This document shows, one piece after another, positions 10,395-29,596 of a DNA stretch of 31,880 bases (position 1 is the stretch's first letter; every line of letters begins with the position of its first letter). The notes under the pieces are model-generated. The model saw nothing but the letters and a program-made list of their open reading frames with translations, searched no databases and was not told the origin of the DNA. Source of the DNA: a virus. The stretch is taken from IMG/VR virus record IMGVR_UViG_3300032217_000333, positions 1 through 31,880 of that record; one strand, written 5' to 3'. The position numbers were made by a program, and so were the translations under genes.

Positions 10395-10657
10395 TGAAAG
10401 AAGTTCTAGACTTCATTAGTTGGCAATGGAGCAAATGGGAAATCTGGCAGAAGGGTTACATTATCTGTGCTTTCTTTGCAGGTGCCGGTGTGTTTGCACC
10501 CAAACCCTATGATGCCTATCTATTTGCTGTTCCTATGATTGTCGTATTCAGTTGGACTGCCAAATGGTGGATTTGGGATCAGCTAATGGAAAGCTGGAAC
10601 AAATACAAAACAGAAAAGCGAGAACTCTTCACCACGATAAAGGACAGTCACAAATGA
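10394..10657 (+). CDS. Small two-helix membrane protein
   Basis: The protein has 87 residues. Two hydrophobic segments are visible, at about residues 20-36 (GYIICAFFAGAGVFA) and 42-57 (AYLFAVPMIVVFSW), flanked by Trp-rich ends and a charged C-terminal tail (NKYKTEKRELFTTIKDSHK). The ATG overlaps the ligase stop (TAATG), so it is co-translated with the ligase. The function is unknown; small membrane proteins in this position are common in phages. Confidence 0.72.
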   Translation: MKEVLDFISWQWSKWEIWQKGYIICAFFAGAGVFAPKPYDAYLFAVPMIVVFSWTAKWWIWDQLMESWNKYKTEKRELFTTIKDSHK

Positions 10658-10881
10658 ACCTTGAAATGCATAGCAGTCGGATTAAGACTATCAAACAAGA
10701 TCATCCAGGGTTTCATATCAATGACGGTTTCATCTCTGCTCCTAGGGCAGGCTTTGAAGTCAATAGTCACTGTCCTGCACAATACAAACAGGTCATTGTT
10801 GAGTGTATCAACAATGGTTGGCTCAAGCCTGTAGCATATATGCACGAACGAGAAGTTCTTATTTCCGGTCTTGCTAAATGA
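10654..10881 (+). CDS. Conserved phage hypothetical protein
   Basis: The protein has 75 residues, starting MNLEMHSSRIKTIKQDHPGF. The start at 10654 makes an ATGA overlap with the gene before; the longer frame upstream would lie inside that gene. The sequence has mixed alpha/beta character (GFHINDGFISAPRAGFEVNS, CPAQYKQVIVECINNGWLKPVAYM) with no signal peptide. The function is not recognised. It ends in an ATGA overlap with the lyase gene. Confidence 0.65.
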   Translation: MNLEMHSSRIKTIKQDHPGFHINDGFISAPRAGFEVNSHCPAQYKQVIVECINNGWLKPVAYMHEREVLISGLAK

Positions 10882-11660
10882 AAAAGTTTGTTCTTTCGGC
10901 TGTTGCTCTTTCAGTGTCCTTGTCATCATTTGCAAACTGTAGGGAAACAGCTATCCACAGAAGTCTTAACGATAAGCCTTATGGTTGGCAAAAGGTTCAA
11001 GAGCCTGTGAGACTGGGAAAGTACGCTCAAAGATTTGAACTCAGATCAGGTGACTGCGGAGCTCAATCAGAATGGAGTGACTGTGCAACTGACAGGGAAC
11101 GATCTGAAGTAAGTGCCAATGCAAAGATTCCTGTTGGGAATACTCAGTATATAAAATTTAGTCTGTTCCTTGAAAAAGATTTTCAAACCAGTAATCGAGT
11201 AGGATCAGTGCTAGGTCAGGTACATCAACAAGGAGGTCCTGAAGGAACCACTAGAGGTTTGCCATCTAAGCCTCCAATGTTTATGTTTTACCTAAAAGGT
11301 AACAGCTATGATTTTTGTTGGCAAAAGCCTAAAATTGTTGACGGAAATCTAGTTAGTAAATGTGAGTTTTATAATTTATTGTCTATTGATCAAATGAAAG
11401 GTCAGTGGAATGATATATTATTAGAAATGAATACTGATTCTACAAAAGGCTATGCAAAAGTTTTTGTTAATGGTGAATTAAAGGTTGAGATAAACGAACC
11501 TTTGTATTATGTTCAACCAAGATCGTATTTTTTCAAATACGGTATCTATAATGCATTTGTCAGCAAACACAAAGGCCCTATGCCTACACAGGTCGCCTAC
11601 TTCGACGAAGTACAACTAGCAGATTCGTTAGATGGTTTATGTAAAAGAGAGATAGATTAA
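10878..11660 (+). CDS. Secreted polysaccharide lyase-like protein
   Basis: The protein has 260 residues. A clear signal peptide, MKKFVLSAVALSVSLSSFA, is followed by NC, so the product should reach the periplasm. The body resembles the beta-jelly-roll polysaccharide lyase family (heparin-lyase/glucuronan-lyase-like): RFELRSGDCGAQSEWSDC, RERSEVSA, GQVHQQGG, KPPMFMFYLKG, W-ND-LLEM, GYAKVFVNGELK, YFFKYGIYNA. Four to six cysteines suggest disulfides. A phage enzyme that is exported rather than part of the tail could change the host envelope or capsule, for example to aid release or block other phages. The substrate is unknown. It lies inside an early operon through ATGA/TAATG overlaps. Confidence 0.72.
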   Translation: MKKFVLSAVALSVSLSSFANCRETAIHRSLNDKPYGWQKVQEPVRLGKYAQRFELRSGDCGAQSEWSDCATDRERSEVSANAKIPVGNTQYIKFSLFLEKDFQTSNRVGSVLGQVHQQGGPEGTTRGLPSKPPMFMFYLKGNSYDFCWQKPKIVDGNLVSKCEFYNLLSIDQMKGQWNDILLEMNTDSTKGYAKVFVNGELKVEINEPLYYVQPRSYFFKYGIYNAFVSKHKGPMPTQVAYFDEVQLADSLDGLCKREID

Positions 11661-15157: not shown

Positions 15158-15673
15158 ATGATTACTTTGAAAGAATGGATGGAAATTGTAGATTACCGTA
15201 TCACTGAGGGCAGTGACTACTGCTGGAACTGCTACGGACACAATGCTCATATGCTAGACTCGTGGAATGGGGAACAAGACGGACATAGTTTTACTGTAAT
15301 CTTTGATACTAAAACTCAAGTAGTCTACGAAGTACAGGCTCACGACTATGTACATCAACGTGCTTATCGTATGATCAATCCCGACTTCCTAAAGAAATTG
15401 AAGAAAGAAGCCAAGAAGCGTGATGTCAGCAAAGACGAAGCCTGGGACGGGGTTGACTATACTGACATCGAAGTTTATGACGACTTTATTCAAAAGTGTT
15501 TGGCTATTCGAGCAGGAGAAGACTACGACACCCGGGTGAGTGTTCCATTAGAACTGGAAGACGATCAGATGTTTGAACTTATGCGTATGGCTCACGAACA
15601 GGACATCACTTTGAATCAATTAGTAGAACGTCTATTACGCAGGGTAATTGACAGAGAAGAAATTACCATTTAG
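15158..15673 (+). CDS. Conserved phage protein with ribbon-helix-helix-like C-terminus
   Basis: The protein has 171 residues. The N-terminal domain (MITLKEWMEIVDYRITEGSD, CWNCYGHNAHMLDSWNGEQDG, TQVVYEVQAHDY, QRAYRMINP) is a type common among marine T4-like phages but unnamed. The last 45 residues (VSVPLELEDDQMFELMRMAH, then ITLNQLVERLLRRVIDRE) look like a beta strand plus two helices, as in ribbon-helix-helix DNA-binding proteins, so an N-terminal module may be tied to DNA binding. AAAGGA precedes the ATG. Its end overlaps the convergent radical-SAM gene by 11 nt. Confidence 0.72.
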   Translation: MITLKEWMEIVDYRITEGSDYCWNCYGHNAHMLDSWNGEQDGHSFTVIFDTKTQVVYEVQAHDYVHQRAYRMINPDFLKKLKKEAKKRDVSKDEAWDGVDYTDIEVYDDFIQKCLAIRAGEDYDTRVSVPLELEDDQMFELMRMAHEQDITLNQLVERLLRRVIDREEITI

Positions 15674-16550
15674 TTGAGTTTATGTCAAAGCCGTTGCGAC
15701 AAGCATCGGCTCGACATATAACAGGATCATTGGTTCCTGTAAAACCAAATCCTAATTTGCCTATAAGGCCACCTTGTCCACAGTGGCCTCTTTTTACGCG
15801 ACCCCAGGCATCAATAATCAACTGTTCAACTCCAGCCATACAATTTCGATTATTGAATAGATTTTTTCCTTCAAGCATCAATGTTTGAAAATCAGAAAAT
15901 TCTTCTTCACCTTGATCGTTGGTGTATATCAGATCTCCGTGTTGCCTTTTTAGTTTTACTGTCTGAGCAGGTTGATATTCCATTGGTTGTTTATTGATTG
16001 CAGGATCTTCAAACAACATTTTCCTATGGATATGTTGATCAGGCCACAATACCTGTATCTTTGTAATAACATCCTCTAATTCTTTCCAACGATCTGGTAG
16101 CATACTTACAGTGATACTAACATCTATATTTTTCTTTTTGGCAGCGTTTAGGCAAAGCATAAAATGACTGATAGCTGTATGTTCGGAATGTACTTCAATA
16201 TTAACACTGTTTAAAGAATCAATTAATCGAGTCCATTCTGCTACAGGCATACTGGCATTGGTACGTATTCGAACATAACTGGGTTTTCTTTTAATATGCT
16301 CTATCAGATCAACGATCCAAGTCCATTGTGTTACTTCCCCGCCGGTGAAATAATAATAACAAACTTTACCTTGTTTGTTGGCAAACTTTTCAATTTGATC
16401 AACAATTTCTTTGCAGTGTTCTATGTTTGGAAGATCAATGCTCCCATTCTTTAATAAGTCGGGACAGTAACTACAATTGTAATTACAGTGATTCATTAAC
16501 CACCAATCGATATAGAGATAATTGCTATCTCTAGTGCTCTGTAGTTTCAT
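15663..16550 (-). CDS. Radical SAM protein 1 (CNYNCSYC type)
   Basis: The protein has 295 residues. The radical-SAM cluster motif HCNYNCSYC gives C22, C26 and C29; FTGGEVTQW is the SAM-binding GGE motif. The C-terminus has further cysteines (NRNCMAG, RGHCGQG, VICRADACRNG), suggesting a second Fe-S cluster as in SPASM-like enzymes. ATG 16550 overlaps the stop of the YqgE-like gene (TAATG); a TTG at 16562 would add four residues. It is closest in style to the radical-SAM gene at 17364-18536. The substrate is unknown. It is the last gene of the minus-strand operon. Confidence 0.85.
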   Translation of the reverse strand: MKLQSTRDSNYLYIDWWLMNHCNYNCSYCPDLLKNGSIDLPNIEHCKEIVDQIEKFANKQGKVCYYYFTGGEVTQWTWIVDLIEHIKRKPSYVRIRTNASMPVAEWTRLIDSLNSVNIEVHSEHTAISHFMLCLNAAKKKNIDVSITVSMLPDRWKELEDVITKIQVLWPDQHIHRKMLFEDPAINKQPMEYQPAQTVKLKRQHGDLIYTNDQGEEEFSDFQTLMLEGKNLFNNRNCMAGVEQLIIDAWGRVKRGHCGQGGLIGKLGFGFTGTNDPVICRADACRNGFDINSTKW

Positions 16551-17107
16551 TAGGCCATCCAACTGTCAGTGGCCTGTTCTCCGCAAAGTTGAGTAGACTC
16601 GATCCACATTTCCTTGGCGTTGATTTCAGATAGCCAAATAGGATCAGGTTGTTTTAATGTGAGCCAGCTGTGATTTATACTCCAGGGAGGGTCACCTAGT
16701 AATTCTCCTTCTAATTGGCCAGGGCCCCAACTGCTTTGTCCAAAAAATATTTTAAAACGCTCGGGATAATCATTGTCGGCTAGATGATGAAACATTGCGG
16801 TGCTGCTGGTCATAGACCAATCGGAGTTTATTCTAGCTGTAGATTCTATTTTCCAATTACTGTCGTGCAACATCCAAACAGTATTTTGTGCAACAGGTCC
16901 ACCCCAATGTAGATTTAGGTTTTGTGATAACTCTATATCTATCTCTTTGAGAACATCATTGATTTTATATTGCGTAGGTCTATTAAGACAAAATGCCAAC
17001 GATCCTTGAGCGGTATTACGAGTTACTAATAATACTGTTTTTTCAAATCTAGAATCGCTTATAGTTGGTGGAGATATTAATAAATCTCCCTTTTCGATTC
17101 TCTGCAT
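16550..17107 (-). CDS. YqgE/AlgH family protein
   Basis: The protein has 185 residues, the usual length of the family. Signatures: KGDLLISPPTISDSRFEKTV, LLVTRN, GSLAFCLNRPTQYKINDVL, HWGGPV, then FFGQSSWGPGQLEGELLG. YqgE/AlgH proteins are widespread in proteobacteria and have no settled biochemical role; a redox or regulatory role has been proposed. A copy on a phage between radical-SAM genes is unusual. It starts 6 nt after the end of the basic late protein, and its stop overlaps radical SAM protein 1. Confidence 0.85.
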   Translation of the reverse strand: MQRIEKGDLLISPPTISDSRFEKTVLLVTRNTAQGSLAFCLNRPTQYKINDVLKEIDIELSQNLNLHWGGPVAQNTVWMLHDSNWKIESTARINSDWSMTSSTAMFHHLADNDYPERFKIFFGQSSWGPGQLEGELLGDPPWSINHSWLTLKQPDPIWLSEINAKEMWIESTQLCGEQATDSWMA

Positions 17108-17113
17108 AATTAA

Positions 17114-17356
17114 TTAACTCCAGTCTGGAAGAGGGCCGCCGTACTTCTTGCCCTTGATTTTTTTACCTCGAACCTTGACTCTATCGCTGCCTACTTTATG
17201 GCTTTTGCCGCCTTCGCGACTACGATAACCTTGGCTTTTGCAACTTGCAAGTTGGCTAGCACCTAAGGCACTGTCAGGCTTTCCTGATGTACAAAGAGAC
17301 CGACTGGCCGGCTCTTCGTCTAGTGGTTTTTCTTGGATAACTTCAAATATACGCAT
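17114..17356 (-). CDS. Small basic late protein, possible internal head protein
   Basis: The protein has 80 residues, starting MRIFEVIQEKPLDEEPASRS. ATG 17356 is chosen because a late box ends 4 nt before it and the longer frame runs through the radical-SAM gene upstream. The N-terminus resembles that of the 6485-8053 protein (MRFFELSEA) and holds an [LI]xE motif (IQE). The C-terminal half is strongly basic (KSHKVGSDRVKVRGKKIKGK, then KYGGPLPDWS), which suits a DNA-associated head protein. LGASQLASCKSQG is a pattern I recall from marine T4-like phages. The function is inferred only. Confidence 0.65.
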   Translation of the reverse strand: MRIFEVIQEKPLDEEPASRSLCTSGKPDSALGASQLASCKSQGYRSREGGKSHKVGSDRVKVRGKKIKGKKYGGPLPDWS

Positions 17357-17360
17357 CAAG

Positions 17361-17368
17361 TATTTATT
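17361..17368 (-). promoter_or_regulatory. Late promoter box AATAAATA
   Basis: The minus strand reads AATAAATA, covering the TAA stop (17364-17366) of the radical-SAM gene upstream. It ends 4 nt before the ATG at 17356, so it could give the basic protein and the two genes after it a separate late transcript. Confidence 0.55.
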
Positions 17369-18536
17369 TGGATTCAAAAGTTTTGTCGCCGGGCCAAAGA
17401 GGCAACTTTGTTCCCGCAGCACGTTTAGGGATCTTGCTGTCTGCACTGCTTACACAACTAGGGCTAATGCAGGGTTTAGGCCCGTCAAATAATTGAAATC
17501 CTGTTTCAATGTTTCCCAAAGGAGCATCGTAACAGCTATAGCTACGTTTAATACTACCGTCAGGTTCTCGTATAATGATTCCTCTATAGCCGCTTGAACA
17601 TTCCCAGCCTTTAAATTTATTAAAGTTAAAAGCATTGAATCTTTCGGCCTGATCCATATACCATATCTTTTGTTCTTTATCTACAAATTCAACTTGAAAA
17701 TGCTGCGGTATTTTACTGTTTTCTTGTTTGTAGAACGGATCAGGAGTTTTAAAGAATTTAGGTGCAGGACGCTCTACTAATTTAGTTTTGCTGGCCTTGT
17801 CTTCTGTAAATGCTCTCTGTGGCATTCCGTTGTGCAATCTTTTGAGCATCTCTGGAGTATATCCGTCAACTACACGACTAGCAGTAGGATCGCTCTGAGG
17901 TTTAAGTGTTACATTGATTCCTTGATTATGGAAGAACAGGGCATTATCAAAGTCACGTTCAAACCATTCAGGAACCATAACTTGATTAATTGTAACCTGT
18001 ACATCGTGCTGTTGACACAGTATCAATTTATCTGCAAACTCCTGCATCTTTTCTGGAGTATCTACGTGTTCAGTGTGTAGGCTTGCTGTGATACTAGCAC
18101 GATGAAACTTGCTGACAGCAGGACAATACTTTTCTTCAAACCATTTAAGGGGTCGACTCATATTGCTGGTCATATGCACACTGGTATAGTTTGTATTATC
18201 TACATCATCGTTTAGGTAATTAAGGATATCAATGTAACCAGGATGGAAGGTAGGCTCGCCGCCACTAAGACTAAAATGGAAACTGTTAAAATTGCGTTCT
18301 CTGGCTTGTCGTTTGATTTCATCTATTGTGCGTAAACACAGCTCAGTTGGTCTGTGATCTTTGCTATCGCTTCTTGCATATGGCCAGCAGTAACTACAAC
18401 GATAGTTACAGTATCTTCCTAGCAGCCAGCTGACTGTGAATAGGTCTTTGTACAACATAGTACGTTGTCCAACACGTACGATATCATCGTAGGGTATTTG
18501 TGTAAAGTCGTAGGCCGACCAGCTTAAATCACTCAT
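17364..18536 (-). CDS. Radical SAM protein 2 (CNYRCSYC type, extra C-terminal Cys)
   Basis: The protein has 390 residues. RYCNYRCSYC gives C43, C47 and C50, and FSLSGGEPTFHPG is the SAM-binding motif. The C-terminal 90 residues hold a SPASM-like Cys set (GWECSSGYRGI, SYSCYD, PKPCISPSCVSS) that could bind one or two auxiliary clusters. The N-terminus adds about 35 residues before the barrel. It overlaps the SDR-like gene by 8 nt, and its stop codon lies inside a late promoter box. The substrate is unknown. Confidence 0.88.
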   Translation of the reverse strand: MSDLSWSAYDFTQIPYDDIVRVGQRTMLYKDLFTVSWLLGRYCNYRCSYCWPYARSDSKDHRPTELCLRTIDEIKRQARERNFNSFHFSLSGGEPTFHPGYIDILNYLNDDVDNTNYTSVHMTSNMSRPLKWFEEKYCPAVSKFHRASITASLHTEHVDTPEKMQEFADKLILCQQHDVQVTINQVMVPEWFERDFDNALFFHNQGINVTLKPQSDPTASRVVDGYTPEMLKRLHNGMPQRAFTEDKASKTKLVERPAPKFFKTPDPFYKQENSKIPQHFQVEFVDKEQKIWYMDQAERFNAFNFNKFKGWECSSGYRGIIIREPDGSIKRSYSCYDAPLGNIETGFQLFDGPKPCISPSCVSSADSKIPKRAAGTKLPLWPGDKTFESK

Positions 18537-19086
18537 TCGTCACCTGTAATGGATCTATACTGATTTCATTTATGTTGATGTCTGCTGGTTGTTCTATCAA
18601 CCATTTAATATATGTTGCTGCCCTATCTATATCTAGACAGGTTCTAGTTGGGTGTTTGGCCTGGACATTACTTAGGCTACCAAAACTTATTAATGTTACC
18701 TTAGGAGCAGAACCCCACACTCCGTTTATTCCAAGAGTATTACAGTAATCCCTCAATGCTTTTTTCTCTGCATTGTATAACCAAGCACCGCCTTTCTTTA
18801 CACGGTCAGTGGTTGATCCTATGCAAATAATATAAGGACGATGACTATTCTCTGTGCATTTTTTGTAGACAGTATCTAACAAAACAGTTTGATTGAATTT
18901 CCAGAGAGCACTGCAATTTATAAAAATATCAAACTCTAGTACTCTTTCTGCACATCGTTGTTGGTCTTTGCTGGAAGTTAGATCGTAGCCCGTTGTCCTA
19001 CTCAGGAACTCAGCGTCTGGATATAACTTAGAAAGTTCTTTTGCTAGTCCGTAGTTTTTATTTCCTGCAATTAAAATTTTAAGCAA
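18529..19086 (-). CDS. Short-chain dehydrogenase/reductase-like protein
   Basis: The protein has 185 residues, shorter than a normal SDR (about 250). The N-terminal strand MLKILIAGNKNYGLAKELSK is Rossmann-like but has an altered glycine motif. Y104xxxK108 (YNAEK), S91 in CIGSTTD and NCSALWKF (N-S-A in place of NAG) match the SDR catalytic set, so it may bind NAD(P). It lies between radical SAM protein 2 and the nitroreductase-like chimera, with overlaps on both sides. The substrate is unknown. Confidence 0.7.
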   Translation of the reverse strand: MLKILIAGNKNYGLAKELSKLYPDAEFLSRTTGYDLTSSKDQQRCAERVLEFDIFINCSALWKFNQTVLLDTVYKKCTENSHRPYIICIGSTTDRVKKGGAWLYNAEKKALRDYCNTLGINGVWGSAPKVTLISFGSLSNVQAKHPTRTCLDIDRAATYIKWLIEQPADININEISIDPLQVTNE

Positions 19087-20146
19087 TGTGGTACCTTACA
19101 TAGTTAGTCATTGGAGGCCTTGTGTCAAAGTTTGAATCTGGTATATTCTTATTTTCGTATATCAGTTTATTAAAATAGGTATTCCTTGGGCTAGTATCTC
19201 TATGACCGATGCCCACTGCTACTACAGGAATTTCCACAGTAGAATGTCCTAACAGACTGGCAATTTGATCTTTTTGTCGTATACAGGCACAGAACGCTGT
19301 GTCTAATCCTTTTGATTCTGCACTTAGCACAGCAAACATACTGGCCATTCCAATTTCATTTTGCATTATTTCTTTATTGTTGCTTGAAATTTTCATCTCA
19401 GCGTTTAGACCTATTTCTTGTTCAGTTAAATTTCTATAACTAAAAAGCAAAAGCCAAGGAGCAAGGACCTGCGGGTTTCTGATGTCATCGATCTTTCCAA
19501 GACCCTTGCGATCAACTGATTCCCATAGTTTCATTCTAATCCTAGTTAACCCAGGAACCAATGTAGGAAGACTAGACGGTCCATTTTGTATAACAGATTT
19601 TATGTTATCAATCAAAGTAGAAATACGTTCAGCTGTTCCTACTTCAATATTGTTTGCTGTTGGCAGAATATGATTTAATATAAGATCTTTTATATAATTC
19701 CAAGTAGGGATTTCTGCAAACTGTCTTACTCTAGGAGCACCATTCTTCCAATAAGTAGAAACATAGTCTCGAGTATATTGATTTGTATTGTATCTAATAT
19801 CATTTATAATAGCCGACATCATATAACCTACATCTCTTGTACATTTTGCAGCATCATAGACAAAACCGTTAAAGGGCGGAACTTTCTGAGAAACCTGCTG
19901 TGCTATCCAATTTGTTGCCTGTGTTTGAATCTGACCTTTACTATTGGTCAGTAACTGTACTGCGTTTGGAGCAGCATTGGGATCGGTGTTATCAATGATA
20001 TCGATAAAAAAAGGAACTTTCTTTTGTTTGCTAGGACAATAATTGTGTATTTCTTGAACTATTTCTTCTATCGAAGATCTACTGGGAACTTGATTAGTCC
20101 ATCTATAGGTTGTGCGTCTTTTGCTAATAACATTTGTCCATTCCAT
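19079..20146 (-). CDS. Nitroreductase-like protein interrupted by a phage virion domain
   Basis: The protein has 355 residues. Residues 1-55 look like the start of a nitroreductase (VISKRRTTYRW, SRSSIEEIVQEI, VPFFIDIIDN). Residues of about 61-195 match a helical domain seen in virion proteins of T4-like cyanophages and marine phages (NAVQLLTNSKGQIQTQATNW, PPFNGFVYDAAKCTRDVGYM, NDIRY, YVSTYW, YIKDLI). After about residue 200 the nitroreductase resumes (NPQVLAPWLLLF, GMASMFAVLSAESKGLDTAF, VEIPVVAVGIGHRD). Nitroreductases are FMN enzymes, and RiPP-type dehydrogenases belong to the same fold. The reading frame is continuous, so this is not a frameshift artefact. A strong AAAGGAG precedes the ATG. 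Both domain calls are by eye. Confidence 0.7.
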   Translation of the reverse strand: MEWTNVISKRRTTYRWTNQVPSRSSIEEIVQEIHNYCPSKQKKVPFFIDIIDNTDPNAAPNAVQLLTNSKGQIQTQATNWIAQQVSQKVPPFNGFVYDAAKCTRDVGYMMSAIINDIRYNTNQYTRDYVSTYWKNGAPRVRQFAEIPTWNYIKDLILNHILPTANNIEVGTAERISTLIDNIKSVIQNGPSSLPTLVPGLTRIRMKLWESVDRKGLGKIDDIRNPQVLAPWLLLFSYRNLTEQEIGLNAEMKISSNNKEIMQNEIGMASMFAVLSAESKGLDTAFCACIRQKDQIASLLGHSTVEIPVVAVGIGHRDTSPRNTYFNKLIYENKNIPDSNFDTRPPMTNYVRYHIA

Positions 20147-20158
20147 TTTTTTCTCCTT

Positions 20159-21394
20159 TTAGTATTTAATAGCTTCTGCTAGAAAGGGAAAGATTTCAAA
20201 ATAATTTTTGTTTTTTAATAGACCTTCTTGTTTGTACCATTTTTCAGCACCAGATAGTTTATTGATTTCCCTTCTTGTACCTATCATACCTTTTAAACTA
20301 TATAGATGTCTTTTATAACTTTCTATATATTGGGCTGAAAAGTTGTAGCTATCTATAAGCTCAAGACATTGATCTATTTTTTCTTGGTAGCTAACAGGAA
20401 GTATTCCAGGATGCATAGCCACGGGCCAAGTAACTACATTAACCCCCATACTCCATGAATGTCCATAGTCCTCTGGTGTGTTATGTGTTAATGCAACATC
20501 AAAATACCATGACAGTAATTTATCTTTAGTAGGTATACTCAATGCACTGACTGCCGGCAATAGATTGATTGTCCTAAATTTCTTACTGGCAAAAATCTTA
20601 TGGAGATTATTTTCAAAATTTTTAAAATCAAGACCGTCTCGAATAGCTTCCCCCTGTTCACCAATTGCATCTAAACTGGTGCTCATAGTCCATTCAAAGT
20701 TTGAATTACGTTCTATTATTTCTATATATCTATCTATGGTTTTTGGTTTAACATTTAAATTGGTTGTTATATTAAAGACAATTCGTTTGTTTTCAACAGG
20801 ATTTCTATTGTGTATGTCAATGATTGATTCTAATACCTTAAAAATCTTAGGTTCCAATAAGGGTTCACCGCCTAAGAAGTTATACCAAACATCTTTTGAA
20901 TCGTTACATCTATTAGTTTCAATATACCCATAGAGATTTTTCAATGCTGTTTCCTGCCAATCGTTATCTGTTACAATTGGTATTCCTTTTAGATCGTTCC
21001 ATGCACTACTAACTCCGGGTAAACAATACATACAGGTTTGATTGCAGGTTATACCTAACATTATTTCAATTTGTCCAACATAGTCTTTGGAGGGAAGTTC
21101 CGCTAATTCAGAATCAGTCCACTCTTTGTCTTTCCAAATGTTCCAATCATTCCAAATAGAGTTCGGCCAAGTTGAATTGCAATAATGACAACCTTCCGGT
21201 AATTTATTGTTTTCAATTAGAAATTTTTTATCTTCTACTAACGCTTTATGTTTGGTAAACGAATCAATTCCTAGTAATTTTAAATCTTCTACAGTTAGTT
21301 TATCTGGTTGTTTTTTACAACAATTTCTTATTTCTTTAGTAGGGATGTTTAAATTAATATCAGTCCAGATTTTGCTGCAGGCTATGTGTTTCAT
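20159..21394 (-). CDS. Radical SAM protein 3 (N-terminal twitch type)
   Basis: The protein has 411 residues. The start MKHIACSKIWTDINLN (21394) is chosen because its first Cys then lines up with the sister proteins; the frame is open to 21448. An N-terminal auxiliary-cluster module carries C6, C25-C26 and C69/C72. The radical-SAM motif ITCNQTCMYC gives C117, C121 and C124, followed by FLGGEPLLEP. Compared with its sisters the N-terminal module is more diverged (CSKIW in place of FCxxPW). It overlaps the end of radical SAM protein 4 by 35 nt. The gene is visibly AT-rich. The substrate is unknown. Confidence 0.85.
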   Translation of the reverse strand: MKHIACSKIWTDINLNIPTKEIRNCCKKQPDKLTVEDLKLLGIDSFTKHKALVEDKKFLIENNKLPEGCHYCNSTWPNSIWNDWNIWKDKEWTDSELAELPSKDYVGQIEIMLGITCNQTCMYCLPGVSSAWNDLKGIPIVTDNDWQETALKNLYGYIETNRCNDSKDVWYNFLGGEPLLEPKIFKVLESIIDIHNRNPVENKRIVFNITTNLNVKPKTIDRYIEIIERNSNFEWTMSTSLDAIGEQGEAIRDGLDFKNFENNLHKIFASKKFRTINLLPAVSALSIPTKDKLLSWYFDVALTHNTPEDYGHSWSMGVNVVTWPVAMHPGILPVSYQEKIDQCLELIDSYNFSAQYIESYKRHLYSLKGMIGTRREINKLSGAEKWYKQEGLLKNKNYFEIFPFLAEAIKY

Positions 21395-22577
21395 ACTGTT
21401 TAAATTCCGGTACGTGATCCAATAAATTTTCTTCTCTCGATATATCAATTGCCTTGGTATAATTAAAAAATTCAGTTAGATGATCGCTGGTATCTTTGGC
21501 ATTCATATAAGCAATAGTTTCTTTTACTTTTGGCCAATGAAGATACTTAGAAAGTCTATCTTCTGCTAGTTTTTTAAGTTCTGGTGGCAGTGTTTGAATA
21601 TTTAAACAAGGAGGATGATTTAGAATATTCAAGTAAGGAGTAACTTCATCGGTTGTTTCTGCAATCCAATCAAAGAATTCTTTTAGATTTAAAATATTAT
21701 ACATTTGTACAGTACAATGAATCTGTACACGCACATTATGCATTGATAAAAACTTATCTATATTTTTCTTTATACTTGACCAGCCGCTGGGATATCTAAT
21801 ATATCTATTTAAATCCCCATAGGCATCTATGCTGGCATTTATTTGCACAGTTTTAAAGTTTGACCAATAGTTGATCATCTTTGTGGGAATATTTGTTAGA
21901 TTTGTATTATATTTTAATTTGATGTTTTTGCTTAATTTCTTTTTTATAAGGATATCAAATAATTTATACTGCTCAATGGCTAGAGTAGGTTCTCCACCAG
22001 TGAGATATATTTCTTCTATGGTATCTGCAATCTCTATAATACTGGCCCAGGTCTTTGGATTCTTTGGCCATTTCATATTACTAAGTCGATCGGACTCTTC
22101 TACAGTCAAAGGAAATTCAGGAGATAACTTGGCAGTTTTAACCACGGTGTTCCATTCATCTACCCATTGATTACTGCTGTAGGGATTACACATACGGCAT
22201 TTTAAATTACATAGATTTCCAAGTCTAAGATCCACATAGGCAATGTTAAGTTCGCTTTCTACGCCATAGTCTTTTGTTGCATCGTACCACTTTTCATTCC
22301 AATTTATTCTTGCTGATTTTATACCAGCATCTTCTTCTTTAAAACATCGTTGGCACATTTCGGGCTTTTCACCATCTAGCATTTGTTTTCTTATTTTTTT
22401 ATAAGTTGGACCATTCCAGATGTCGCTAGGCTTAGCTGAAGTTATTTTTATAGCTTTACCTTCATCATCGAGTACAAGATTTTTATCAGGAATACTATTA
22501 CAGCATACTCGATAGTTGCCGCTGGCAGTAGTGGCAATGCTATTCCAAGGCATCATACAAAAGGTAGGGCTATTCAT
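21360..22577 (-). CDS. Radical SAM protein 4 (N-terminal twitch type)
   Basis: The protein has 405 residues. The N-terminal module FCMMPWNSIAT followed by GNYRVCC and CQRCFKEED holds C7, C25-C26 and C75/C78, a SPASM/twitch-like Cys pattern placed ahead of the barrel. The core motif NLCNLKCRMCNPYSSNQW gives C123, C127 and C130, with LTGGEPTLA as the SAM-binding segment. ASIDAYGDLNRYIRYPSGW is shared closely with radical SAM protein 5. It is AT-rich. Its ATG overlaps the stop of the oxygenase-like gene (ATGA). This is the twitch-domain radical-SAM type common in marine phages and bacteria; the substrates are unknown. Confidence 0.9.
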   Translation of the reverse strand: MNSPTFCMMPWNSIATTASGNYRVCCNSIPDKNLVLDDEGKAIKITSAKPSDIWNGPTYKKIRKQMLDGEKPEMCQRCFKEEDAGIKSARINWNEKWYDATKDYGVESELNIAYVDLRLGNLCNLKCRMCNPYSSNQWVDEWNTVVKTAKLSPEFPLTVEESDRLSNMKWPKNPKTWASIIEIADTIEEIYLTGGEPTLAIEQYKLFDILIKKKLSKNIKLKYNTNLTNIPTKMINYWSNFKTVQINASIDAYGDLNRYIRYPSGWSSIKKNIDKFLSMHNVRVQIHCTVQMYNILNLKEFFDWIAETTDEVTPYLNILNHPPCLNIQTLPPELKKLAEDRLSKYLHWPKVKETIAYMNAKDTSDHLTEFFNYTKAIDISREENLLDHVPEFKQYETHSLQQNLD

Positions 22578-23512
22578 TCTATTTCCTTTAAGAAAGTTAA
22601 CAACAGACCCATCTTAAGTTCCCATTTATCTTGTTTTCCAGAAGGTCTAATATTGGTTCCAAGATTGGTTGCGTGTAGTTGAACAGCATCGAATACAATG
22701 GGCTTGCCTGGCATCCATTCCAATGTTGTTTCGGGTGTCAATCCGGTCAATCTTACTCTTGGAGTATGGAAAAGATACTTTCCATGATGCGCTCCATCAT
22801 ATGCTTTTTCATTTTGTTCTTTGGTAAACAGTTCTCCTTTTTGATTATAAAAATCAATTGTAGAATGATCTGTTACCACTGGATAGGTTGTAGCAGGTGG
22901 AGGAACTTTTTCTCCGTGATTATAAACGTGTGCAAAATCTATGTGTCGCTGATCAAACCACACGCCGTGACTTTGAATCTGCGGTCTAGCAATCCACAGA
23001 GGTATGATAATATTTCTCCAAGGAACATACCTACGTGTAGGACTATCAATAGGTGCTTTAACCATACTGTTTTCCCAATCAATTCTACGAGTGCTGTCAT
23101 TGTGTAGACCGTATTGGCTAGGAGTGATAAAAAAGTTTCCTCCAATCTTTGGGCTTTTTGTACAACCGGGTAATACTCTTTCTAGTTTCTCTGCAAACTT
23201 TGCAACGATTACATCTAAATGTCCACTAACAAACATAGTTCCATTTGCATTGTGCCTAACATTATGACAACAACCAAATGCAAAAGCATACAGCCAAGAT
23301 AATTCTTCTTCGTTGAATTCTTCATCGCTGATCTTTGCCGGTTCAAATATCTTACGCATTGCATTACGAGCATACTCGCTAGTGAGTTCAGGAAGATAAC
23401 ATTCGTAGGTCAGTGCGTCTTTCCAAGGATTGGTTTCAGCTAGTATCCTGGCTTCTTCTTGAACAGGTCTAATATCTTTTTGTGGTCCAAATATTTCTTT
23501 ATACATAATCAT
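22574..23512 (-). CDS. 2OG-Fe(II) oxygenase-like protein
   Basis: The protein has 312 residues. The C-terminal two thirds look like a double-stranded beta-helix: ITPSQYGLHNDSTRR provides HxD (H137, D139), VFDAVQLHATNLG provides the distal His (H280), and R289 could hold 2-oxoglutarate. IIIPLWIARPQ and HGVWFDQRHIDFAHVYN fit strand segments between. The first 120 residues are helical. Such enzymes hydroxylate or otherwise oxidise proteins, sugars or small molecules. The start at 23512 gives an ATGA overlap with radical SAM protein 5. The motif assignment is by eye, and the substrate is unknown. Confidence 0.62.
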   Translation of the reverse strand: MIMYKEIFGPQKDIRPVQEEARILAETNPWKDALTYECYLPELTSEYARNAMRKIFEPAKISDEEFNEEELSWLYAFAFGCCHNVRHNANGTMFVSGHLDVIVAKFAEKLERVLPGCTKSPKIGGNFFITPSQYGLHNDSTRRIDWENSMVKAPIDSPTRRYVPWRNIIIPLWIARPQIQSHGVWFDQRHIDFAHVYNHGEKVPPPATTYPVVTDHSTIDFYNQKGELFTKEQNEKAYDGAHHGKYLFHTPRVRLTGLTPETTLEWMPGKPIVFDAVQLHATNLGTNIRPSGKQDKWELKMGLLLTFLKEIE

Positions 23513-24912
23513 CTCTCAAATATATCTTTCATCTCTGGAAAAGTTTCATAGAAAGTAATTCCTCTATGAGCATCGATCTTTTCTAAATAATCTTTCATCT
23601 CTGGCAATCGTTGACTCCAATCTTCGCTTTTCATAAAACTAATCATACCTCGCAGTCTTTTAACTCCATAGGTATTGGCCAACCATCTATCTTTAGTTAC
23701 TCTTCCTCGTTTTTCTTCGGGTATGCATAATTCCCAATTCTCTTCAAACCAAGGAATAAATTCTTCGTACTTGCGTTCGCACTCATCTTTAAACCATTGT
23801 GGTAGTACTTTTACATTTAAGAAAGCTGGCCAGTAGACAAAGTGATAGTTAATGCCGCCTGCACCCAAGGGCCACATATTGATCTTTTTAAAGTTCTGTG
23901 ACAGTTTCCATTTTAAGAATTCTGGTATGTAATAGATGTTTAGAGCATTGACTGCACAGGCAATTGTAACTTCTACGTTGTCTGTGGTCTGTTCATCAAG
24001 TATACGGAATACATCCTGTGTACGACTCCATTTGCTAGGGTAACGAATGTATTCATTCATTTCACCTATGCTGTCTACACTGTAATGGAAACGCACAATT
24101 TTAAAATGGCTCCATAATTCAAACAGATCATCTCGCCAGGTTACACCATTGCTGTTGTAACGAATTTCAATGTCCTTGGCTCGACCCTGCCTGATGATCT
24201 CTTCCAATATTTCATAGTGCTCGTCAATGATCAAAGGTTCGCCACCGGCAAAGTAAACCTGTTGCATATGTGGAATCTGTTCGTAGAATTGCTCCCAGAA
24301 CACGGGATTTTGTTTATGCCAGTTATAGCTTGATCCATTGATACTGCCTTTATTATCCCACTGCCAAATCTTTTTAACTCCTTCATTTTCCAATGTAGGG
24401 AACACAGTCTGCCAATCTTTGATCCAACCACTGCTGTCGTGTGGGCTGCACATAATACAGGCCAGTTGACACTTGGTGCCAAATCTCAAATCAATATAGG
24501 CCAACTGAGGAGGAACACTACCATCATCGTTGGTTTCTTCGATCAATTTATCAATGCTCACACGCTTTGACCAATACTCAGTTTCCCACTGACGTTTGCT
24601 GTTATGTCCAGAGTCTTCTTCTTTGTAGCATTTAGTACAGCTAGGTGGTTGTTCGCCTGCCAACATCAGCTTGCGAACGTTTTTCATATACTTGCTGTTC
24701 CAAGCTGTTTGAAAATCTGTGTTGTTAAGATTGCTAGGAAGACCTTCGTCGTCTTTGAGTACACCAACCTGAGCACCACCAAGTTTTTTATCGTTGCTGG
24801 CTCCAACTCCACTGGCATTGGCTGTACAACATACTCGCATACTGCCATCGGGCCTAGTGCTTAGGTGTACCCAAGGTAGGATACAAAATGTTTTGCTTGG
24901 TAACTCATTCAT
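23509..24912 (-). CDS. Radical SAM protein 5 (N-terminal twitch type)
   Basis: The protein has 467 residues, the longest of the set. The N-terminal module is FCILPWVHLSTRPDG, MRVCC and CTKCYKEED (C10, C28-C29, C92/C95). The core motif FGTKCQLACIMCSPHDSSGW gives C148, C152 and C155, with YFAGGEPLII as the SAM-binding segment. SVDSIGEMNEYIRYPSKW parallels radical SAM protein 4. The module is the standard twitch form, and a KY/W-rich insertion follows the barrel. ATGA overlaps join it to both neighbours. The substrate is unknown. Confidence 0.9.
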   Translation of the reverse strand: MNELPSKTFCILPWVHLSTRPDGSMRVCCTANASGVGASNDKKLGGAQVGVLKDDEGLPSNLNNTDFQTAWNSKYMKNVRKLMLAGEQPPSCTKCYKEEDSGHNSKRQWETEYWSKRVSIDKLIEETNDDGSVPPQLAYIDLRFGTKCQLACIMCSPHDSSGWIKDWQTVFPTLENEGVKKIWQWDNKGSINGSSYNWHKQNPVFWEQFYEQIPHMQQVYFAGGEPLIIDEHYEILEEIIRQGRAKDIEIRYNSNGVTWRDDLFELWSHFKIVRFHYSVDSIGEMNEYIRYPSKWSRTQDVFRILDEQTTDNVEVTIACAVNALNIYYIPEFLKWKLSQNFKKINMWPLGAGGINYHFVYWPAFLNVKVLPQWFKDECERKYEEFIPWFEENWELCIPEEKRGRVTKDRWLANTYGVKRLRGMISFMKSEDWSQRLPEMKDYLEKIDAHRGITFYETFPEMKDIFER

Positions 24913-26069
24913 TCCAGTAAGTCCTTTGCCCAGGGATAAAGTTCTTGATATTTGACATCGTTGTTAAAATTCCATATGTTGACAGCATCATTTAGTGCTT
25001 GTTTTTCTTCGGCTGTGATTGATCTTTCTTGTGTCTTTAGAGCTTCAAAGAACTTAAAATAATCCTTGTGCATACCTTTAGGAAATCTACAGTTATTTAA
25101 AGAATCTATTACAGCCTTTCGATATTTCATTGGGATCAATTTAAAATCCATATAGCTAGGCTGCATCACTTCATTGTAGGCCAACCATACATTGTCAAAC
25201 TCGCTGGCCCAATTTAAGAAGTCAACAACACCAAGTGCATTTAATTGGCTCCAACAAGGAGTCAGTGCTACTTCAAAACCACAGTCTCTAAATCTTCTGA
25301 AGTTTCTTTCAATCACAGTCCACTTGCAGGGGAATCGTTGGAACTCAATATGTTCTCCGATACCGTCGATGCTGCACTGCATAATTACTTTGTTAAATTT
25401 TTTCAGCAGATCTAATATAGATTCTTTAGCAGTTGTGGTATTGGTTAGAAAAGAAACTGTTAGATTATTCTTGCCTTCTTCAATCATCCTTTGTAAAAAA
25501 TATTCTACTTCAGGCATGGCAAAAGGCTCTCCGCCGGCAAATTTTATTTCTTTTAAACTAGGAGTTCTAAGGCAGAATCCTATGAGATCTTCTATAAACT
25601 GATTTTCAGGTTTGACTGTGCCTTTGATATAAGATTGGTTTAAAGAATTAACTAGGCCAGCATCCTTGGCTGATTTGTATAATTTACCCAGTTGATTGCT
25701 CCACATAGGATTACACATTCTACACTGTAGATTGCATTGGTTGCCCAGTCTTAGATCTATTACTTCTATTTCTGGAGTTAGATCCCTGGTGTAATAGGTG
25801 CTGGAATTCCAATTGATTCTATAGGAATTATGTGACTTTTCTTCGAGCTTCCAACATTTGGAACAAGAAGTATCTTTAATTCCTTCTGAAAGTCTTGTTC
25901 TCAATGAATTAAGACTAGACTGTTCTGCAAACCATTTGTTTGGATCTTGGGCTTTAAGAAATCCCTTGTCTTCGTAGCCTTCTGTTTGTATACAGCAGTG
26001 TCTGAAACTTCCGGTGTAATTGATATAGAGCTCTTTATAGGTTACTCCACAGTATAGGCTTTGGTTCAT
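24909..26069 (-). CDS. Radical SAM protein 6 (N-terminal twitch type)
   Basis: The protein has 386 residues. The N-terminal module YCGVTYKELYINYTGSFRHC continues into a second Cys and then SCSKCWKLEE, giving C7, C25-C26 and C69/C72. Here the usual FCxxPW is replaced by YCGVTY. The core motif NQCNLQCRMCNPMWSNQ gives C112, C116 and C119, and FAGGEPFAMPE follows. CSIDGIGEHIEFQRFPCKW again parallels proteins 4 and 5. ATGA overlaps join it to both neighbours. It is part of the four-member twitch set; the substrate is unknown. Confidence 0.9.
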   Translation of the reverse strand: MNQSLYCGVTYKELYINYTGSFRHCCIQTEGYEDKGFLKAQDPNKWFAEQSSLNSLRTRLSEGIKDTSCSKCWKLEEKSHNSYRINWNSSTYYTRDLTPEIEVIDLRLGNQCNLQCRMCNPMWSNQLGKLYKSAKDAGLVNSLNQSYIKGTVKPENQFIEDLIGFCLRTPSLKEIKFAGGEPFAMPEVEYFLQRMIEEGKNNLTVSFLTNTTTAKESILDLLKKFNKVIMQCSIDGIGEHIEFQRFPCKWTVIERNFRRFRDCGFEVALTPCWSQLNALGVVDFLNWASEFDNVWLAYNEVMQPSYMDFKLIPMKYRKAVIDSLNNCRFPKGMHKDYFKFFEALKTQERSITAEEKQALNDAVNIWNFNNDVKYQELYPWAKDLLE

Positions 26070-27235
26070 TTGAATTGCTCGCTAAAGGCATCATATTTAG
26101 TACCACAGGTTTTAGCACAGACTGCTAGCTTGCCATCAGCGCAGCTGGATTTAGCCCAGCTCTCAGGAATGACTTCCTGAAAGTATTGACCATCGACTAT
26201 GTTTTGTAAACTGTGACTAACGGCATTGAGATTGTCCTTGCCCACAGAATCTATAGCGTCCCATATCTGCCCTCCACGATCATTCCAATACCAAACATAC
26301 ATTTGATTGGCTGTCCAGCAACAGGGCTGTACTATGCCCTCTGCTGAGATGTAAAGACTTTTTTCTTCCTGTACCTTGCATTTTATTTCTGCTTCATCCC
26401 AGATCTTTTCCATGGGCTTTTTCTTTGCAGGATCTCTGTGAAAGATCTGGGAATACAGTTTGTCTTTGACATCTTCAAACTTACTGGGCAGGAACTTCAA
26501 AGGCTGATCGTTTTTACTGATTTTGCTGAGTTCATCAATCACTGAATTCCTGTACTTGGGATTTGTAGGAGGTTGTAGCAGTGTGGTAGCCAGGCCTCGA
26601 CGATTAGCGGCCTGATGCATTTCTTTGGTCATACCGCTGGCATTGCTGAAAAATCTTGCAGACTTCTTGTATTGAAAACGTTCAAAGCCCATTTGTTTGC
26701 TCAGTGCTTCTGCGGCTTCTACCTGATGTTCGTTGTGTGCAAACACGATATAGTCCCAACGTGCCCTGCCGCCTGCTTGAATAAAAGCTTCTGCATTTTC
26801 CATTATCTTTGACCAAACTGTGCCCTGACGATAAAGATGATTGGTATCTTCTAGTCCATCTAAGCTGAATACTACATAGCCCCTGGGTCCTATTGTTTGA
26901 GCCAACTCTCTCCACCATTCGGGTCGTTTGGCTGAACCATTGGTATGCATACTGAGATTTATCTTGGGGTTAGTGTCCCTAAAGTATTTCAATGCTTCTA
27001 GAGTATCGCGGGCAGCAATGGGATCTCCGAAGTTACCACAGAGATAGATTCTATCCAACTGTAGTAAAAACTCAGGATCAAAGATAGCCTTGATATCAGC
27101 CAGGCTCAGTTCGGCTGCGGGCATCTGCGGATTGACTTCACCGCCATTGATATTGCGTGAGCACATAGGACAACTGGCATTACAGGCCGCTGTGATTTCT
27201 AGATGCACTGTTCTTAGTTCATTATATTTGTACAT
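26066..27235 (-). CDS. Radical SAM/SPASM protein 7
   Basis: The protein has 389 residues. The core motif AACNASCPMCSRN gives C18, C22 and C25 right at the N-terminus; YLCGNFGDP takes the place of the GGEP motif. HTNGSAKRPEWW and FSLDGL are typical barrel segments. The C-terminus has a classic SPASM-like ending: IKCKVQEEKSLYISAEGIVQ, then PCCW, and later SSCADG and VCAKTCG. Unlike proteins 3-6 its auxiliary-cluster domain is C-terminal. Its ATG overlaps the stop of the small 73-residue gene (TAATG). SPASM enzymes often modify peptides or proteins, but the substrate here is unknown. Confidence 0.9.
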   Translation of the reverse strand: MYKYNELRTVHLEITAACNASCPMCSRNINGGEVNPQMPAAELSLADIKAIFDPEFLLQLDRIYLCGNFGDPIAARDTLEALKYFRDTNPKINLSMHTNGSAKRPEWWRELAQTIGPRGYVVFSLDGLEDTNHLYRQGTVWSKIMENAEAFIQAGGRARWDYIVFAHNEHQVEAAEALSKQMGFERFQYKKSARFFSNASGMTKEMHQAANRRGLATTLLQPPTNPKYRNSVIDELSKISKNDQPLKFLPSKFEDVKDKLYSQIFHRDPAKKKPMEKIWDEAEIKCKVQEEKSLYISAEGIVQPCCWTANQMYVWYWNDRGGQIWDAIDSVGKDNLNAVSHSLQNIVDGQYFQEVIPESWAKSSCADGKLAVCAKTCGTKYDAFSEQFK

Positions 27236-27456
27236 TATTCACTTATTAGTTTAACATCTCGACCGGGTCCTACACAACTGGGTAGATCACCGTAGTGTGC
27301 CACATAGTCTCGTATCACAGCCCTGTACCAGTTCTGGCTGTTGTGATGTGCCTGAACGTTGTATTTGTAGATGGCATTGTTGGTGGCTTCCATCACAGAC
27401 AGTGCCCGTGCGGCTTCCCGTTGCAGGGTTCTCAGATCCAGTGTGTCCAAGTCCAT
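27235..27456 (-). CDS. 73-residue protein coupled to the SPASM enzyme
   Basis: The sequence MDLDTLDLRTLQREAARALS continues VMEATNNAIYKYNVQAH and ends YGDLPSCVGPGRDVKLISE. It is mostly helical with one cysteine and a Gly/Pro-containing tail, and it has no signal peptide. TAATG overlaps join it to the methyltransferase-like gene before and to the SPASM radical-SAM gene after. Size and position would suit a peptide substrate or a partner of the radical-SAM enzyme, but the core is not repetitive and no leader motif is seen, so it may be a small structural or regulatory protein. Confidence 0.6.
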   Translation of the reverse strand: MDLDTLDLRTLQREAARALSVMEATNNAIYKYNVQAHHNSQNWYRAVIRDYVAHYGDLPSCVGPGRDVKLISE

Positions 27457-28682
27457 TAGGGTCTACCTATCAACATCACACGCTTGTAGCCCTTGAGCTG
27501 TAGCTCTCCGGCAAATATGACTTCACGCATGGGGAACTTTTTGATCATATGATCCACGCTGTGTACACAGTTAACGTGCTCGGCAATATCAAATAGATTG
27601 TTGCTCTGTATGGCCACAATAGGGTCACTGTCTAGCTGTTTGAAGCGCAGCTGATGAAACCATTCTTCGGTCATATGCTCTGCTGAAGTGTTGATTATCA
27701 AATCGGGCAGAAACTTTTCACTGTAGGCTGCGCCATCTCGAAAGTTTTCTACGTTCCATTCATAGCCATTCTTGTGCAGGGTTAGTTCATTGATGTCTGC
27801 ATTAACTGCTTTTACTTTATAATTTTCCAGTTCAGATAGGTTAAAAATATAGTCACTGACTTCGCATGCTTGTTTGTCCAGCTCAATGATCCTCATCTTT
27901 TTGTAGTTGAGTTTTTTATCAAAAATGCTTTTTAGTTGTCCGAACCAACCAGCCATGACCACCACATTGGACATAACAGGTCCTTTTAAAGGAAAAATCC
28001 CCAGGCGTCTATTCTCGTCAGTGTCCAATTTAGATAATTCTTCCACAAGCCAAATTTTACTTTTAATTTGACTGCGACTGAATGCATCATTAATTGAACC
28101 CTTGTCTGCATCAGACTTTAATAAATTGTTGATTCCTCTAAAGATCTTGTCGTTGGGGAACTGTTGATCCAATTTTGACAACTGAGTTTTTATCACAAAA
28201 TGATCAATGTCTTCTTGATCCATGCTTCTTAGCACGATTTCTGTATCTCGACCCAGATTTTCTAGACCTTTTGTTTTTAGCACACGGGCATTGTACTGTA
28301 GTAATGCTCGATAAAGATCCTCTGGCAGTTGTTGACTCCGGTTGATGCTGTGACAGAGATCAGCTAACGATGCCAGTTCTTGATCGTGCTCTGTCTTCTT
28401 TAGCACTCGAGCGCAGTAGGTCAATACAGATCGATACACAGCTTCAGTGCTGTGAGAATTTTTTGTGATACCGTGACAGAGATCAGCTAGGTCTATCAGC
28501 TCGGGTGGTAGCTGGGCTGAGAGCTGCTGTAGATATGATCTTGCAATGGCCAGTCTAGGCGTCTCAGACTGTAGACTTCGAGAAATTGTGTGCAGTTGCG
28601 CTGCCGTTGAAGGTTGTTCAAGATATTTGAGATATTCTTCTAGTCCCAACAAGAATTCGCTGCTGGTAGCTGATTCGGTCAT
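27456..28682 (-). CDS. Methyltransferase-like protein with N-terminal repeats
   Basis: The protein has 408 residues. About residues 58-141 hold two similar 42-residue helical repeats (ELIDLADLCHGITK and ELASLADLCHSINR, each ending CARVLK or NARVLK), with a weaker third upstream. The C-terminal 180 residues resemble a Rossmann-type SAM methyltransferase found in phages: VVVMAGWFGQLKSIF, KMRIIELDKQACEVSDYIF, ADINELTL, DLIINTSAEHMTEEWF. The repeats may bind a partner or substrate. Overlaps join both neighbours (ATGA before, TAATG after). Whether it transfers methyl groups, and to what, is unknown. Confidence 0.65.
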   Translation of the reverse strand: MTESATSSEFLLGLEEYLKYLEQPSTAAQLHTISRSLQSETPRLAIARSYLQQLSAQLPPELIDLADLCHGITKNSHSTEAVYRSVLTYCARVLKKTEHDQELASLADLCHSINRSQQLPEDLYRALLQYNARVLKTKGLENLGRDTEIVLRSMDQEDIDHFVIKTQLSKLDQQFPNDKIFRGINNLLKSDADKGSINDAFSRSQIKSKIWLVEELSKLDTDENRRLGIFPLKGPVMSNVVVMAGWFGQLKSIFDKKLNYKKMRIIELDKQACEVSDYIFNLSELENYKVKAVNADINELTLHKNGYEWNVENFRDGAAYSEKFLPDLIINTSAEHMTEEWFHQLRFKQLDSDPIVAIQSNNLFDIAEHVNCVHSVDHMIKKFPMREVIFAGELQLKGYKRVMLIGRP

Positions 28683-29596
28683 GATCGCAGTCTCCGGGGC
28701 TCAGTGCGATCAGGGTGTCGAAACACTGATTTAAACCAAGAGCTTTGCAGTGCGTTAAGGGGCTCTGCGGCCAGCGCTAGGCCCAGACCGTCCCTGAGTC
28801 TCAGGCCTAGATCCTCTACAGCTCTGACCAGTTCGGGTAGGCTGCGAGTCTCAATGTCACGCTCCCAAATCGTGTCCAGATAGTCAAAGTCCTGTACCCT
28901 GGTGTGATCCCAGTCAGTGAGCATGGTGCGATAAAGACCCTGACGTGCGCCCAAAATACTGTAAAAGCCATTGGCCTGATCTAGACCCACCTGTAGCCAG
29001 GTCAAGAGACGATCTAGATTGTTCTTGGCCTGGGCTGCTCGCCACTGATCAGGGTCACGTATCAGAGCTCCGTTGACCAGGGCCAGTTTAACACCCTCTC
29101 GAAAGCCCGCACGCCAGCTTTGATGCTCGGTGTGATTGATCAGTACGTCACTCCATACTCCGGGCATGAGCACATAGTCCAGGGCCCAGCAGAAGTCCAC
29201 AGCAGCCTCACCCGAAGCACTGACTTCGTGTGTCTGCATTGAGTCAATCACAGACCTAGGCCAGATCTTGATGCCCCCATTGCCATAGCGTAGGCCGTTG
29301 ACTGCGTTTTCTCCGGGAAAACTCAAGACACTGTGGCCAACGTCCCAGCCTGCGTCAAACTCATAGCACCAGTCTAGGAACTCTCTGCGTATTTGATTGT
29401 CCCCATCTACGGTGATCACGTGTGTGCCCGAAGCCAAAGCCGAGCAGGCCTTGTGTGCGGCATCTGATCCTTTGACTCCGTGTACTCGCTGTGCCCTGGG
29501 GCATAGATCCAATAGATGTTGCCAATTCTGTTCGCAATTGGGTTCATCATAGCTTAGGTAGACAATGTCTATGTCTTTGACTGAGAATTTCTGCAT
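28679..29596 (-). CDS. Glycosyltransferase-like protein (GT-A fold)
   Basis: The protein has 305 residues. The N-terminal 70 residues show a GT-A pattern: DIDIVYLSYDEPNCEQNW, RVHGVKGSDAAHKAC and ITVDGDN, with the DxD metal/nucleotide-sugar site at D64 and D66. YGNGGIKIWPR follows. I recall this type from marine phages, where it lies near tail or surface genes. The remainder is helical. It is the first gene of the minus-strand operon, with a late box 4 nt before the ATG. The base composition is more GC-rich than the radical-SAM genes that follow. The sugar and acceptor are unknown. Confidence 0.72.
   Translation of the reverse strand: MQKFSVKDIDIVYLSYDEPNCEQNWQHLLDLCPRAQRVHGVKGSDAAHKACSALASGTHVITVDGDNQIRREFLDWCYEFDAGWDVGHSVLSFPGENAVNGLRYGNGGIKIWPRSVIDSMQTHEVSASGEAAVDFCWALDYVLMPGVWSDVLINHTEHQSWRAGFREGVKLALVNGALIRDPDQWRAAQAKNNLDRLLTWLQVGLDQANGFYSILGARQGLYRTMLTDWDHTRVQDFDYLDTIWERDIETRSLPELVRAVEDLGLRLRDGLGLALAAEPLNALQSSWFKSVFRHPDRTEPRRLRS

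Follow-up and report, generated by a model that had tools for sequence, protein, structure and literature searches.

We identified, in a fragment of a viral genome, an intact gene encoding a nitroreductase that is interrupted by a phycobiliprotein-like module of the kind found in phage tail proteins. The gene lies in a 31,880-base metagenomic fragment of IMG/VR virus record IMGVR_UViG_3300032217_000333 (the whole stretch of DNA analysed, hereafter the window), and the phage to which it belongs is a large aquatic myophage. The architecture of the protein, its homologies, its recurrence in other phages and the retention of a bilin-attachment motif are established. As the best reading of these observations, with about an even chance of being correct, we consider the product to be an FMN-type nitroreductase-fold enzyme carrying a phycobiliprotein-like module that is bilin-binding or directed to bilin-type tails. 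The single unbroken frame noted in the preliminary description was confirmed on the minus strand, the plus strand of the same interval containing many stops. Its features are as follows.

19079-20146, minus strand: nitroreductase gene with inserted phycobiliprotein-like module, a single open reading frame of 355 residues
20153-20158, minus strand: ribosome-binding site AAGGAG, shortly 5' of the enzyme's ATG
19979-20146, minus strand: N-terminal part of the nitroreductase fold, residues 1-56, with RR.T..W and PSKQ motifs and the first strand at 46-52
19547-19978, minus strand: inserted module of five helices, residues about 57-200, homologous to tail-protein modules and phycobiliproteins
19832-19846, minus strand: K101-C102-T-R104-D105, aligned with the phycocyanin bilin-attachment motif K-Cys84-x-Arg86-Asp87
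19082-19546, minus strand: C-terminal part of the nitroreductase fold, residues 201-355, with RNPQ.LAPW, NEIG, GLDT.FC.CI and G.G motifs

The two ends of the protein had been described as halves of a nitroreductase, and profile and structure comparisons upheld this. PF00881 matched the intact protein at 25.7 bits (curated cut-off 23.5) through residues 262-315, and excising the middle extended the match from partial to full-length (profile positions 1-167 of 167, 28.7 bits). An AlphaFold2 model built from a 22-row alignment of phage sequences reached a pLDDT of 93 and a pTM of 0.88, and its best Foldseek matches in the PDB were nitroreductases with the query aligned end to end: 3gr3 (E 3e-8), AlbA, 8cqt and BluB-like proteins. 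A search of the PDB with a profile of the enzyme family likewise matched nitroreductases (3g14, E 3e-6). According to the model, residues 1-56 and 201-355 build one nitroreductase fold. Key loops are conserved by alignment, and the model is a single chain without ligand; the enzyme is probably of the FMN type, and FMN binding, a homodimer and NAD(P)H-dependent reduction would be its expected properties. A direct PDB sequence search with the single protein returned cucumene synthase (E 0.36), which was uninformative, and sub-threshold Pfam matches such as GIT1_C and DUF7810 were put down to chance. PF05996 (ferredoxin-dependent bilin reductase), whose fold differs from that of the enzyme, had no match anywhere in the window record. 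Single-sequence scans of viral contigs with the enzyme, its C-terminal part or one radical-SAM gene returned no relatives, and genome contigs scanned with four insert-type proteins contained no cellular relative.

The insert sits in the loop joining the first beta strand to the next helix. Plain paralogues aligned to the enzyme show an empty site, with no enzyme sequence missing on either side. Modelled alone, the insert forms the same five helices (pLDDT 96), so that, as expected in the preliminary description, the outer parts make up one fold and the middle a separate domain that folds by itself; the borders proposed earlier, residues 61-195, were too narrow, since the module spans about 57-200.

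This fusion is not confined to the window. A scan with the radical-SAM gene at 23509-24912 (RSAM-E) fetched 80 viral loci, and further loci were added later; they were mostly picked by RSAM-E or by the module, from collections sampled in part. Among them we observed three architectures, with the module inserted, the module N-terminal, or the nitroreductase plain. Insertion-type genes were found in four other loci (L006, on two contigs, L012, L031 and L086), at 41-48% identity, and the module stands N-terminally on six more phage nitroreductases (L047, L044, L087, L104, L105 and L107). Since the pairing recurs in 11 distinct fused genes and two topologies, it is unlikely to be accidental. In the enzyme tree the insert types formed one clade (97/94) and the N-terminal fusions were scattered over the nitroreductases; in the module tree all fused modules lay on one side of the branch separating them from 55 tail modules (98/88). 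The modules of the N-terminal fusions form one clade and their enzymes do not, so that these fusions may have had one origin or several. One insert-type gene (L086:9965-11048) has a frame break between the N-terminal enzyme part and the module, owing to sequencing error or decay. One island (L087) holds three nitroreductase genes (10001-10555, 16991-18091 and 19203-19844), one of them with an N-terminal module.

We conclude that the module family is homologous to phycobiliproteins, because the same answer came from structure search, PDB profile search, profile-profile comparison and the Pfam matches of related tail proteins. When the isolated insert was searched against the PDB with Foldseek, each of the top 50 positions went to a phycobiliprotein or the bilin domain of one (TM 0.53-0.67, probability 0.99-1.00, with modest E values of 0.015-0.15). 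A profile of 17 modules gave 33 matches to PDB sequences at E<1, of which 28 were phycobiliproteins (best E 0.02), and in the best match the K-C-x-R-D of the module falls on the Cys84 motif. PF00502 exceeded its cut-off of 22.2 in tail reading frames (30.6 bits in the jumbo-phage record G006, 24.5 in S-CAM1, about 31 summed in S-PM2); all 26 match places, in 16 records, lay within module-bearing reading frames, and one of 14 control genomes exceeded the cut-off, as expected, since a cyanobacterium was among them. The window's own module (residues 56-200) had no PF00502 match up to E 10, and we therefore call it phycobiliprotein-like rather than a member of the Pfam family. Finally, hhalign aligned 116 modules with 62 CpcA/CpcB sequences at a score of 39.4 (probability 89.5), compared with at most 17.2 for 60 column-shuffled controls and 12.0 for a reversed one. 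The bilin site of phycocyanin consists of Cys84 together with Arg86 and Asp87, and among the best-kept columns of the module are those for Asp, Cys, Arg and Lys in this motif. C-x-R-D is kept in all 11 nitroreductase-fused modules and in 100 of 116 non-redundant modules, the other 16 lacking it.

The earlier proposal that the middle is a virion domain of T4-like marine phages also held. Residues 53-186 match virion proteins of T4-like cyanophages (S-PM2, E 2e-7; 158 records at E<1, nearly all cyanophages), and in the phage collection every record matched by the module came from a marine T4-like phage, the proteins concerned being for the most part annotated as tail-fibre, baseplate or structural virion proteins. 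Named Foldseek matches in a viral structure library were tail or structural proteins of S-WAM2, S-CAM1, S-PM2 and similar phages. Counted over aligned columns, the module of the window shares 44% identity with the first module in a tail protein of about 1,900 residues (L127), and it is homologous to the modules of tail and baseplate proteins in T4-like and jumbo phages. Across 50 whole viral records the module occurred in giant reading frames and nitroreductases only, and across all fetched loci in 46 giant and 26 small reading frames, every one of the 26 small ones being a nitroreductase (11 distinct genes). Record G006, a jumbo record of 400 kb, has 37 module matches, about 30 of them in one reading frame of 6,682 residues that adjoins other fibre-like genes; a second profile counted 34 copies in that frame. 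Its tail region (L108:5125-19998, L109:2-5170, L110:2506-14871) comprises reading frames of 6,682 and 4,122 residues, with about 34 and 5 modules. Beside module-bearing tail genes of radical-SAM-island phages lie very Cys/Gly-rich, probable fibre-tip proteins (L112:8763-9725 and 9741-10697, L111:11547-12506), which are possible radical-SAM substrates.

These distributions bear on the strongest competing explanation, which takes up the packaging idea of the preliminary description: the module would be a tail protein-protein interaction domain that has lost bilin binding, and through it the enzyme would reach the tail and be packaged there or held during assembly. Tail and baseplate proteins indeed contain arrays of the module and often begin with it, the whole of it is kept in both fusion topologies, and cyanophage virions are known to contain enzymes (PMC10665884). 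However, docking alone leaves the strong conservation of the bilin-site Cys, Arg and Asp unexplained, and modules of insert and N-terminal fusions branch together, apart from the tail copies. We consider this explanation unlikely, though worth serious attention. Because the module is phycobiliprotein-like and its bilin motif conserved, the likely function becomes that of a bilin-linked module rather than a packaging tag.

The gene is embedded in a radical-SAM island (window 15663-29596) that counts seven or more radical-SAM genes. The frame of the island is constant (28679, 27456, 27235, RSAM-G, RSAM-E, SDR, RSAM-B) and its cargo exchangeable, and the majority of the 80 viral loci have it. The genes around the enzyme are listed here.

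18529-19086, minus strand: SDR-like downstream gene, overlapping the end of the enzyme gene, within the conserved order
20159-21448, minus strand: RSAM-C, radical-SAM gene that adjoins the enzyme gene in all loci of the insert type
21360-22577, minus strand: RSAM-D, radical-SAM gene (NF033640, 389 bits)
22574-23512, minus strand: conserved neighbour with no family match, oxygenase-like by eye only
23509-24912, minus strand: RSAM-E, radical-SAM gene and island marker, 63-94% identical across the 80 viral loci

The enzyme is part of the exchangeable content: two loci (L007 and L008) have the same gene order without it, it is missing from sister loci L002 and L003, and the close relatives G001 and G002 have the island and no enzyme. 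GC content is 0.33-0.36 in RSAM-D, the enzyme and RSAM-C, versus 0.37-0.54 in most flanking genes, which is compatible with acquisition of the three as a cassette. The island also includes an AlgH/YqgE (DUF179) gene (16550-17107) and, adjoining RSAM-G in most islands, a gene for a 73-residue protein (27235-27456; ATNN.I..FN..AHHNSQNWY.AVI..Y...YG.LPS). We rejected the latter as a candidate peptide substrate of radical-SAM enzymes: it is conserved from end to end and is not precursor-like. Elsewhere in the window (10878-11660) lies a gene of the polysaccharide lyase type (PF14099), the start of which resembles a signal peptide.

The preliminary description saw in the enzyme a direct link between the radical-SAM genes and the virus particle. 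The link consists of genomic neighbourhood only, as none of the radical-SAM proteins in the fetched loci bears the module. A further explanation is that the enzyme and its radical-SAM neighbours post-translationally modify tail proteins and the module serves substrate recognition. The cassette with radical-SAM genes is conserved in all insert-type loci, and peptide-acting enzymes such as AlbA have the same fold. In the isolate Mosig, plain nitroreductases and MoaA-annotated genes sit between the tail-fibre and VrlC genes, and radical-SAM cassettes have been reported from the host-recognition region of pelagimyophages (PMC7029224). Against this, the module is absent from the radical-SAM proteins and from most island nitroreductases, and module-rich cyanophages have no member of the enzyme's nitroreductase family, leaving the explanation improbable. 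The notion that the module simply follows radical SAM was rejected, as many modules occur in cyanophages that have no close relatives of RSAM-E.

Less probable still is the neutral or selfish capture of a tail module, copied into the enzyme gene and tolerated without function. The highly repetitive tail modules may recombine with ease, and identity in the insert (36-41%) is below that in the enzyme parts (46-66%). Yet across distinct phages the fused modules remain open, full length and furnished with C-x-R-D at 16-46% identity, and the association recurs only with nitroreductases. An artefact of chimeric assembly or chance similarity, conceivable for a metagenomic fragment, has a negligible probability: the same build in four loci from independent metagenomes excludes both, and the models are confident and the profile matches significant.

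The tetrapyrrole genes of this phage and its relatives give the conserved motif a context. The window encodes the first enzyme of tetrapyrrole synthesis:

3696-4907, plus strand: 5-aminolevulinate synthase, AlaS (TIGR01821, 563 bits)

The sister records G001 and G002 share this gene with the window (AlaS 95% and DNA ligase 92% identical), and the jumbo record G006 is more distant (76% and 60%). Phage 5-aminolevulinate synthase is known (PMC11480375). CpeT, heme oxygenase and bilin reductase are absent from the window fragment; adjacent heme oxygenase and bilin-reductase genes are carried by G002 and G006, the latter thus combining AlaS, heme oxygenase, bilin reductase and its 37 module matches in one genome. 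P-HM2 has heme oxygenase, bilin reductase and CpeT together with modules. A comparison of positions put cpeT about 1.4-7 kb upstream, on the same strand, of a tail gene bearing the module or of the module itself in 17 cyanophages, for example S-CAM1, S-CAM4, S-PM2 and S-WAM2 (L171, L172, L091, L092; H119-H172), which do not represent 17 independent events because the phages are related; in P-HM1, P-HM2 and MED4-213 cpeT does not have this position. This arrangement suggests that the tail modules are the acceptor of CpeT, a member of the bilin-lyase family. Evidence against a general link between module and bilin genes comes from Mosig, which has heme oxygenase and bilin reductase but in which the second profile, too, detected no module, and from two module-bearing phages without bilin genes (G030 and G036).

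In the mechanism that we favour, the inserted module would bind a bilin, a linear tetrapyrrole, through Cys102, and the phage would make this bilin itself with AlaS, heme oxygenase and bilin reductase, a set found in near relatives. The flavin half would change the redox state of the module-bound bilin; alternatively, the enzyme's own module would bring it to bilin-type tail modules, which it would modify. That Cys102 carries a bilin is a roughly balanced proposition. That the flavin half acts on this bilin or on bilin-type tail modules we hold less surely, as a tentative and rather doubtful suggestion. The enzyme may also be packaged in the virion. A broader proposal, about as doubtful as that suggestion on the flavin half and still speculative, is that T4-like and jumbo phages build bilin-carrying tails, with the tandem modules of their giant tail proteins chromophorylated by phage-made bilins via AlaS, heme oxygenase, PcyA/PcyX/PebS and a CpeT-type lyase, and that the module nitroreductase serves this pathway as its dedicated enzyme for bilin redox chemistry or tailoring.

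The role of phage pcyA and pebS 'remains a mystery' and that of cpeT is 'unresolved' (PMC3037559), and the phage hemO and bilin-reductase genes next to alaS have been called 'still enigmatic', with bilin-binding globins as one possibility (PMC11480375). The phages' own phycobiliprotein-like modules, which have the attachment motif and occur in a flavoenzyme as well as in tail proteins, offer a concrete candidate bilin acceptor; this makes the question of the phage bile-pigment genes testable. Bilin-carrying tails, if they exist, would explain bilin genes in phages of hosts without phycobilisomes. The preliminary description knew of no described protein of this build, and a literature search scarcely covering subscription papers turned up no account either of phycobiliprotein-like modules in phage tails or of the nitroreductase fusion; the novelty of both is therefore provisional.

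Several known systems resemble parts of this protein. The nitroreductases of Pelagibacter phage Mosig EXVC030M (Mosig_00082 and Mosig_00093) belong to the same phage family and lie near radical-SAM and tail genes, but they have no inserted module, nor does the rest of the Mosig genome. Members of the nitroreductase superfamily (PF00881; 3gr3, 8cqt, 3gfa and the cyclodipeptide oxidase AlbA, 8uc3) share the complete alpha/beta fold and the family motifs, whereas the phage enzyme has a domain of about 145 residues added after the first strand and a sequence identity of 8-14% to solved structures. With phycobiliproteins (PF00502; phycocyanin alpha) and bilin biosynthesis-associated globins (BBAGs, PMC10151467) the module has in common the predicted fold, the K-C-x-R-D on the Cys84 site and the bilin genes in related phages; unlike them, it is divergent, is found within an enzyme or as tandem copies in tail proteins, and has no antenna partners. 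The giant tail-fibre and baseplate proteins of Kyanoviridae (PHROG 4527; S-PM2p088, the short tail fiber protein of S-CAM1 and S-CAM4, P-HM2 gp7) contain a homologous module, but there it sits in large multi-domain structural proteins, whereas in the window it is a single copy within an enzyme.
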